Positions 37,769 to 38,845 of a DNA stretch of 39,028 bases are shown piece after piece. The notes beneath the pieces were generated by a model. The model saw only the letters and a program-made list of their open reading frames with translations. It did no database searches and had not been told where the DNA came from. Location: positions 1-39,028 of the forward strand of contig JALUXX010000057.1 in the NCBI GenBank assembly GCA_027013145.1. The letters are read 5' to 3'. The translations under genes and the position numbers were made by a program. How positions within the stretch are numbered: position 1 is the stretch's first letter; each line of letters begins with the position of its first letter. The DNA is from Gammaproteobacteria bacterium. Its GTDB lineage: Bacteria > Pseudomonadota > Gammaproteobacteria > 21-64-14.

Positions 37769-38254
37769 CTACTTGCTGTGCGAGACCATGTATTCGACGG
37801 CGTTCTTGATGTCCTGATCCGGCAGGTCGGAGCCGCCCTTCGGGGGCATCTTCTTGAACCCGTGCAGGGCGTGCTGGAACAGGACCTTCATCCCCTTGGC
37901 GACGTGCGGCGCCCACGAGGCCTTGTTGCCGAACACCGGCGCCCCCAGGGCCCCGGTCGCGTGGCAGGCCGAGCAGACCTGGTGGTAGACCTGCTCGCCG
38001 GTGAGGATCTTGGGTTTTGCGGGCGCCGCGGGGGCGGCCTGTGCCGGCATGGCCTGGCCGGCGACGTGCACCCGGCCGACGGGCTGCAGTCGCGCCAGGA
38101 GCTGCGCACGCGCCTCCGCGCTCTGCCCGGTGTTGCTTTCGTTGAAACGCGTATCCAGGTAGTGGGCGACGATGATGAAGATCACCGCGAGGCCCGCGAG
38201 GACCAGCAGCACCGCGCGAAAAGTCGAAATGAAGACGTCGTCTTGATGGCTCAC
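37769..38254 (-). CDS. Membrane-anchored class I cytochrome c (c5 type)
   Basis: 161 residues. An N-terminal uncleaved helix (AVLLVLAGLAVIFIIVAHYL, about 14-33) anchors it in the inner membrane with the rest in the periplasm. An Ala/Pro linker leads to the heme domain: GEQVYHQVCSACHATGALGA holds the CxxCH heme site near 94, and GFKKMPPKGG supplies the axial Met. It is a c5-type electron carrier, as found with terminal oxidases or denitrification enzymes. It is convergent with comM across 15 bases. The donor and acceptor are unknown. Confidence 0.92.
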   Translation of the reverse strand: MSHQDDVFISTFRAVLLVLAGLAVIFIIVAHYLDTRFNESNTGQSAEARAQLLARLQPVGRVHVAGQAMPAQAAPAAPAKPKILTGEQVYHQVCSACHATGALGAPVFGNKASWAPHVAKGMKVLFQHALHGFKKMPPKGGSDLPDQDIKNAVEYMVSHSK

Positions 38255-38611
38255 CTGTCGCTCCTCAGCCGTGCGGTCGACCGATCGACCTTGTTTCTTC
38301 TATTTAAGGTGTCCGTTCAGCGGCCCCGTGCCGGCCGACCGTCCCGGCACGGCCGGCCGGGTCGCTGCGGAGGAATCGCGCCGGGGGCACGGCGCCGCGG
38401 GACGGCGCACAGTATAGCCGCAAGCCCCCGGAGATTGAACTTGGCGGGCTAAAGTCCCGGCGCTCGCGGCCGCTAACCCGGGTAACCGGGAAAACCGCCC
38501 GGCCGGCCCCCCACCTGTGGGGGAGCGGCCGGCCGCGACAGGGACCCCCGCGGCCGGGCGCCGCAACGCCACGAAGCCGCGCGCCGGGCGGGCGCGCCAG
38601 GGGTAGCCCAC
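38255..38611. other. Gene-free control region with GC-rich hairpins
   Basis: A 357-bp region between the divergent cytochrome c5 gene and the flagellar-like small gene. It includes the AT-rich ttgtttcttctatttaagg (38291-38309) in the likely promoter area of the cytochrome gene. A FliA-type promoter lies at 38450-38476. A strong interrupted stem (38501-38513 with 38518-38534) would lie in the leader of the plus-strand transcript. The CG-rich palindromes at 38327-38362 have no assigned role. Confidence 0.6.
38450..38476 (+). promoter_or_regulatory. FliA (sigma-28) type flagellar promoter
   Basis: TAAA (38450-38453), exactly 15 bases, then GCCGCTAA (38469-38476), against the FliA consensus TAAA-N15-GCCGATAA: one mismatch in twelve defined positions. 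A transcript from about 38483 would have a leader of about 130 bases before the small gene at 38612. Confidence 0.75.
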
Positions 38612-38845
38612 ATGAGTGTTTCCGCCATCGGCCCTGCTTTGCAGGGAATCCAGAACGGCCTCGCGGATCTCACGCGCAACGCGCAACGCATCGCGCAGGC
38701 CAACCGCCACGGCGGGGCCGCGCCCCCGGACGTATTGGGCCCGCTGGTCAACCTGCCCCGGGACCGCCTCCAGGTCGCCGCCTCGGTGCAGGCCCTGAAG
38801 GCCGCGGACGCCACCCTCGGGACGCTGCTCGACGTGAAGGCCTAA
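38612..38845 (+). CDS. 77-residue protein with flagellar rod/hook-like N- and C-terminal motifs
   Basis: Not a named family to me. Residues 6-30 (IGPALQGIQNGLADLTRNAQRIAQA) look like the N-terminal D0 helix of flagellar axial proteins, where A-L-x-G-x-x-x-G-L-x-x-x-x-x-N-x-x-x-I-A is typical. Residues 45-77 (LVNLPRDRLQVAASVQALK, then AADATLGTLLDVKA) look like the C-terminal D0 helix of FlgE/FlgG-type proteins. Only about 15 residues separate the two, so there is no exposed domain. A FliA-type promoter lies upstream. The ribosome site is weak (AGGGGTAG). Likely a flagellar or surface-associated small protein; function unknown. Confidence 0.75.
   Translation: MSVSAIGPALQGIQNGLADLTRNAQRIAQANRHGGAAPPDVLGPLVNLPRDRLQVAASVQALKAADATLGTLLDVKA

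Follow-up and report, generated by a model that had tools for sequence, protein, structure and literature searches.

What is encoded by a 77-codon gene that lies at the very end of a gammaproteobacterial contig, behind a promoter-like site of the FliA (sigma-28) type? The gene is located in contig JALUXX010000057.1 of assembly GCA_027013145.1 (Gammaproteobacteria bacterium, lineage 21-64-14), of which the forward strand from position 1 to 39,028 was analyzed as a whole (the window, 39,028 nucleotides (nt)). A previous interpretation made without database searches (the sequence-only reading) had seen in its product the N- and C-terminal D0 helices of a flagellar rod or hook protein joined directly, with no D1/D2 domain. 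The function that we infer for this mini-protein, and consider reasonably probable, is that of a late (FliA-regulon), exported, D0-only hook-type mini-subunit acting at the flagellum, often alongside a SprA-related protease secreted by the flagellum. The features of its gene, referred to as the mini-gene, are as follows.

38612 to 38845, + strand: gene of the putative D0-only hook-type mini-protein of 77 amino acids (aa), stop codon included (open reading frame (ORF) call, family profile)
38599 to 38603, + strand: possible ribosome-binding site AGGGG (sequence)
38618 to 38707, + strand: codons for residues 3-32, the predicted N-terminal helix, similar to the N-terminal D0 helix of FlgE (predicted structure, predicted local distance difference test (pLDDT) 80 overall; domain 1 aligns weakly to FlgE)
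38726 to 38839, + strand: codons for residues 39-76, the predicted C-terminal helix, with homology to the C-terminal D0 of FlgE/FlgG and with PF06429 in relatives (family profile, predicted structure)

The ORF was found exactly where the sequence-only reading had placed it, starting with ATG and encoding MSVSAIGPALQG...LGTLLDVKA (in full MSVSAIGPALQGIQNGLADLTRNAQRIAQANRHGGAAPPDVLGPLVNLPRDRLQVAASVQALKAADATLGTLLDVKA); the contig stops 183 nt past its stop codon. It is a real gene, because its orthologues keep the helix/linker/helix plan and purifying selection acts between relatives, with omega values of 0.06-0.26 in four relative pairs (a fifth pair with an omega of 0.32 and only two changes is uninformative). 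Small related ORFs turned up in about 22 of 93 related genomes in a protein search, and a profile search of 275 genomes of the class gave 68 carriers, read from small, mostly near full-length matches. Extension of the scan to the phylum added further carriers in larger genomes with pseudomonad-like locus content and a few outside the class. The orthologues measure 70-100 aa and share the common plan, seen in an alignment of 22 members as two segments flanking a variable linker, the N-terminal one with G12 and the C-terminal one ending LLDxxA/V. The candidate loci L026, L027, and L028 were rejected as chance coiled-coil or frame matches, with the match of L026 lying inside a 275-aa ORF. Structure prediction, one of the checks proposed with the sequence-only reading, gave two helices (residues 3-32 and 39-76) connected by a linker of six residues (AlphaFold2 with 65 sequences, mean pLDDT 80, predicted template modeling score 0.60), leaving no D1/D2 (or Dc) domains within the 77 aa, as had been claimed.

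The hook relation of the window mini-protein is visible only via the family profile, single-sequence searches being silent. Within the 22 aligned members, a Pfam search matched PF06429 (Flg_bbr_C) in 11, the best at 4e-6. The family hidden Markov model (HMM, 64 members) scored FlgE at 1.4e-7, FlgG at 1.3e-6, and FlgC at 0.004 among the proteins of the own genome, while FlgB, FlgF, FlgK, and FlgL were not matched and reversed decoys reached 0.0036 or worse. Genome-wide, the next matches below the small ORFs covered profile positions ~35-76 and fell repeatedly at the C-terminal end of open frames of 400-560 aa, i.e., of hook-protein length; the next-best sequences of a profile search against the PDB were FlgE C-termini (E 0.02). 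By these sequence comparisons, the similarity to hook proteins is mainly in the C-terminal D0. Its clearest sign, as judged from sequence and gene position, is that in one locus (L135, genome G096) a FlgE paralogue takes the place of the mini-protein, which points to the latter being a hook-type protein without D1/D2. This full-length FlgE-type protein of 396 aa (584-1774) is encoded 35 nt before sprA, the gene of a SprA-related protein, scores over the NCBIfam cut-off for NF004238, matches the family HMM at 2.2e-15, with a domain E of 4.8e-13 for its C-terminal 43 residues, and ends LFDATA. It lies on a different contig from the other hook-type match of G096, whose contig also carries FliA, and its dismissal as a plain FlgE false positive was rejected by its position directly before sprA. 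At the level of the family, the flagellar profile comparison suggested at the outset came out in favor of the sequence-only reading, through PF06429, the own FlgE and FlgG, and this paralogue; of the claim that both D0 ends are present, the C-terminal half was supported, with the N-terminal half matching weakly.

As a separate observation, locus L132 (5947-6288, genome G035) hosts a second kind of D0-type mini-protein with 113 aa and an NNIAN motif, nearer to the FlgC/FlgK ends; FliA and FlgK are not over cut-off in this genome.

The upstream region of the mini-gene contributes the following features.

38450 to 38453, + strand: -35-type box TAAA, in the context TAAAGT, of a promoter of the FliA (sigma-28) type (pattern; AAAGT invariant in four syntenic loci)
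38469 to 38476, + strand: -10-type box GCCGCTAA, 15 nt past TAAA, one mismatch from GCCGATAA (pattern; GCCG-TA invariant in four syntenic loci)
38477 to 38598, + strand: long leader between the promoter-like site and AGGGG, where judging by synteny a partner gene seems lost
37769 to 38254, - strand: divergent cytochrome c-type gene (CSACH), syntenic neighbour for the promoter footprint (ORF call; recurs in 6 loci)

The site TAAA-N15-GCCGCTAA spans 38450-38476, 162 nt upstream of the ATG, and both its presence and its single mismatch had been described correctly from the sequence. The exact pattern TAAA-N15-GCCG[AC]TAA occurs at six sites in the 3.28 Mb of the own genome, all with a same-strand ORF downstream, and at none when read backwards. 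The flagellin gene of this genome is preceded by TAAA-N15-ACCGATAC with two mismatches, likewise in TAAAGT context and 157 nt before its ATG; the mini-gene site fits the FliA consensus better than that of the flagellin gene, at a similar distance. In order to assess conservation, boxes were counted in the 200 nt before 65 orthologues, allowing spacers of 15-16 and using dinucleotide shuffles as null. Sites with at most one mismatch preceded 8 of the 65 (0.035 expected) and sites with at most two mismatches 16 (0.96 expected), with none on the reverse strand in the same count. A leave-one-out matrix, applied in five loci to the sequence upstream of sprA or of the sprA remnant, placed 29 of the 65 above the 99% null quantile with 0.65 expected. 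Alignment of the window with L065, L070, and L071, which share the cytochrome c neighbour, showed AAAGT and GCCG-TA to be invariant, and in three loci with sprA ahead of the mini-gene (L071, L072, and L084) a one-mismatch site is found near the sprA start or upstream of it. The conservation of both boxes upstream of orthologues, on which the sequence-only reading had staked its promoter, was in this way recovered well above the shuffled background.

Other FliA-type sites of the own genome were recorded alongside. A PilM-like gene follows two tandem exact sites (C62:70591-70749; L173, L174) at distances of 119 and 251 nt, and a type IV pilus operon may be under FliA control there. Further exact sites at C5:20495, C21:40536, and C36:96692 (L169-L171) precede genes named by eye as M23-type peptidase, GGDEF/EAL-like, and radical SAM-like, with the ATG of the peptidase gene 34 nt past the start of its site.

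The own genome encodes FliA (5.5e-81) and FlgK, and its flg operon, identified by eye as running from FlgB to FlgL, is found on another contig. Within the class, FliA was over cut-off in 63 of 68 carriers versus 96 of 207 non-carriers (Fisher 1.4e-12, not phylogeny-corrected), showing the orthologues to be enriched in flagellated genomes as anticipated, and three of the five carriers without FliA (G093, G220, and G152) have FlgK. Flagellar genes were also sought as direct neighbours of the mini-gene, with none among the recurring ones; the recurring shared neighbours consist of sprA and lineage-specific housekeeping genes. By promoter and FliA presence, the mini-gene fits the FliA (sigma-28) regulon as far as this can be read from sequence.

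The survey of genomic neighbours, likewise proposed with the sequence-only reading, led to a link which that reading had not foreseen. Clustering of 2297 flanking ORFs revealed one recurring neighbour beyond lineage synteny, a SprA-related protein (PF12118) that is adjacent and on the same strand in 24 of the 68 loci. With an E of 7e-34 for PF12118 and a DREVRAHEAAH-type motif, it represents a putative zinc metalloprotease. Its gene mostly starts just past the mini-gene and in three loci (L071, L072, L084) ends just before it, and some sprA genes away from the mini-gene also have FliA-like sites. Among FliA-positive genomes the two genes co-occur with an odds ratio of 8.2 (p 7e-9). In Campylobacter jejuni, the SprA-related zinc metalloprotease CJM1_0395 was found to be missing from supernatants of flgG mutants in two strains, and its own mutant grew and moved like the wild type (PMC5223770).

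Mini-proteins and SprA proteins also resemble each other in their tails. The last residue is A or V in each of the 24 adjacent SprA proteins, most of which carry a hydrophobic residue at -5 and D/N/S at -4; in the mini-proteins, it is A or V in 61 of 68, and position -4 is occupied by D or N in 65 of the 68. The pattern hydrophobic-D/N/S-x-x-A/V, seen in the SprA proteins of L064-L127 and L136-L166 and shared with the mini-proteins, is possibly a binding or export tag. A small predicted helical hairpin, a gene order suggestive of co-transcription with sprA as putative export substrate, and a shared hydrophobic-D-x-x-A/V end would also suit a protein that stays cytoplasmic as export chaperone, pilot, or regulator. 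Its D0-like hairpin would pair with the free D0 ends of SprA or of an axial protein and deliver or hold this partner, with no incorporation into the flagellum. Export chaperones such as FlgN, FliT, and FliS bind the C-terminal ends of late substrates, a further point in its favor. Known export chaperones, however, are without D0 sequence likeness, whereas the C-terminal half of the mini-protein is homologous to FlgE/FlgG, i.e., to substrates, and the paralogue occupying this position in L135 is a hook protein of full length. Reported surface exposure also argues against a cytoplasmic location, by way of a tentative equation: the mini-gene member of L183 follows bioC-bioD, a place which, by locus order and not by sequence, we take to be that of PA0505 in PAO1. 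The hypothetical protein PA0505 of Pseudomonas aeruginosa has been reported as surface-captured or surface-exposed, together with FliD (PMC3511353). We regard a role as cytoplasmic chaperone or regulator as unlikely.

The window itself contains no adjacent same-strand PF12118 gene within the 183 nt remaining downstream or elsewhere beside the mini-gene, and no PF12118 match was obtained in the contigs of the own genome; control genomes were silent as well, though PF12118 was picked up by this search in 57 other genomes. The interval from promoter to mini-gene is occupied by an intact sprA in L071, and in L065 and L070 by an ORF in which the start and tail of sprA are kept and the protease core is missing. 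Because of the synteny with these three loci, the lineage of the window seems to have lost its sprA partner, with its close relatives as apparent intermediate stages. The mini-gene could accordingly be a leftover on its way out, its partner being gone, for which the missing PF12118 match, the reduction of sprA to its two ends in L065 and L070, and a genus-mate (G001) without a clear copy can be put forward. We judge this distinctly unlikely for a gene with an intact ORF, with all conserved positions kept and with a FliA box better than that of its own flagellin gene; moreover, a downstream partner may lie off the contig.

Several observations weigh against an exported hook-type mini-subunit. 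At the protein level, PF00460 (Flg_bb_rod) was not among the matches of any of the 22 family members, and the N-terminal helix aligns to FlgE in register at 4-6 bits, not significant by itself. The window mini-protein alone gave no Pfam match up to E 10, only noise in NCBIfam, and nothing useful in a single-sequence PDB search. Fold searches (Foldseek, VIA-align) returned generic helical hairpins only and are not diagnostic; the lack of flagellar entries among their results does not count against a flagellar relation. At the genome level, carrier G035 has mini-gene, sprA, and a flg region, yet FliA and FlgK are not over cut-off; carrier G082 has the mini-gene and a good box, but no FliA/FlgK in its bin; and the genus-mate G001 is flagellated, yet has a marginal, probably spurious match only. 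No FliA box lies within 250 nt upstream of the Pseudomonas orthologues. Finally, 25 FliA-positive carriers are without sprA and 15 FliA-positive sprA genomes without the mini-gene; therefore, mini-protein and SprA are not obligatory partners.

The silent single-sequence searches and the generic hairpins could be taken to mean that the protein is a non-flagellar helical hairpin, its D0 match a coincidence of coiled-coil composition and its promoter a chance match. This is the least likely of the rival explanations and in our view very improbable, as reversed decoys score far worse, the next-best genome-wide matches fall repeatedly at the C-terminal end of hook-length frames, and both promoter and FliA associations point to the flagellum. 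The sprA-less carriers, in turn, together with D0 homology and FliA timing, would suit a minor axial subunit that is purely structural, placed at the filament base or tip or at the hook-filament junction, and would make the sprA pairing a shared-regulon convenience. The strong association and direct adjacency with sprA argue against it, as does the patchy distribution: absence from most flagellated members of the class speaks against an essential structural part. This explanation appears somewhat unlikely to us.

For the favored exported mini-subunit, the following course can be proposed. The mini-gene would be transcribed by FliA RNA polymerase after hook completion, and its product would be exported by the flagellar type III apparatus via the D0-like N-terminus. 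There it might form a helical hairpin that packs on the D0 layer of the axial subunits, or it might remain at the channel, tip, or surface, with a minor subunit, a docking piece, or a plug as its conceivable roles. Many relatives would produce it jointly with the SprA-related metalloprotease, which probably leaves by the same route, and both probably act together. A more tentative, though conceivable, extension is that SprA-type metalloproteases are secreted through the finished flagellum in much of the Gammaproteobacteria, pseudomonads included, and that the FliA-controlled mini-protein is their dedicated exported partner, a hook derivative devoid of D1/D2 that docks the protease in or on the flagellum via the common tail.

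The mini-protein family seems to be undescribed, though widespread in flagellated Gammaproteobacteria: a literature search found no description, though a supplementary FliA table may list it. In plasmid records, no relative of a Pseudomonas member was found. The flagellum ranks among the best-studied bacterial machines, yet the mini-gene points to a widespread late gene absent from the papers found; it lies outside the flagellar operons, where it is readily overlooked. Its pairing with a protease family having a flagellum-secreted member raises the question of whether protease export is routine for the flagella of pseudomonads and ordinary environmental bacteria, and which role a D0-only subunit plays in such export.

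Compared with known systems, inner-rod and needle proteins of type III secretion systems are of similar size and share the helical-hairpin plan. Their families were matched weakly and below significance (PF17001 in three members, 0.0015; PF09392 in one member, 0.025), and the genomes and promoters of the mini-gene point to the flagellum instead. FliE, FlaG, and FlgM are likewise small, exported, and flagellar (FlaG and FlgM late), but no sequence relation to them was found, with a single FliE match of 0.052 in one member. PA0505 is tentatively matched by the L183 member in locus position, not by sequence, and differs in that the FliA box is missing upstream of the Pseudomonas members. SprA-related proteins such as CJM1_0395 are linked to the mini-protein by gene adjacency, by FliA-type sites ahead of many sprA genes, and by a similar C-terminal tail; they are distinct proteins with a HEAAH zincin-like core and disordered ends, not found in the genome of the window. 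Closest are FlgE and FlgG, which share ~40 homologous C-terminal residues, a similar N-helix pattern (G-I/L-x-x-G/A ... N-x-x-I-A), and the two-helix hairpin. The mini-protein differs from them in having 77 aa without D1/D2, a tail LLDxxA/V instead of the NIR/NLR type, and a gene behind a FliA-type promoter outside the flagellar operon. Rather than a new class of system, it would be a hook-type variant among the axial proteins.
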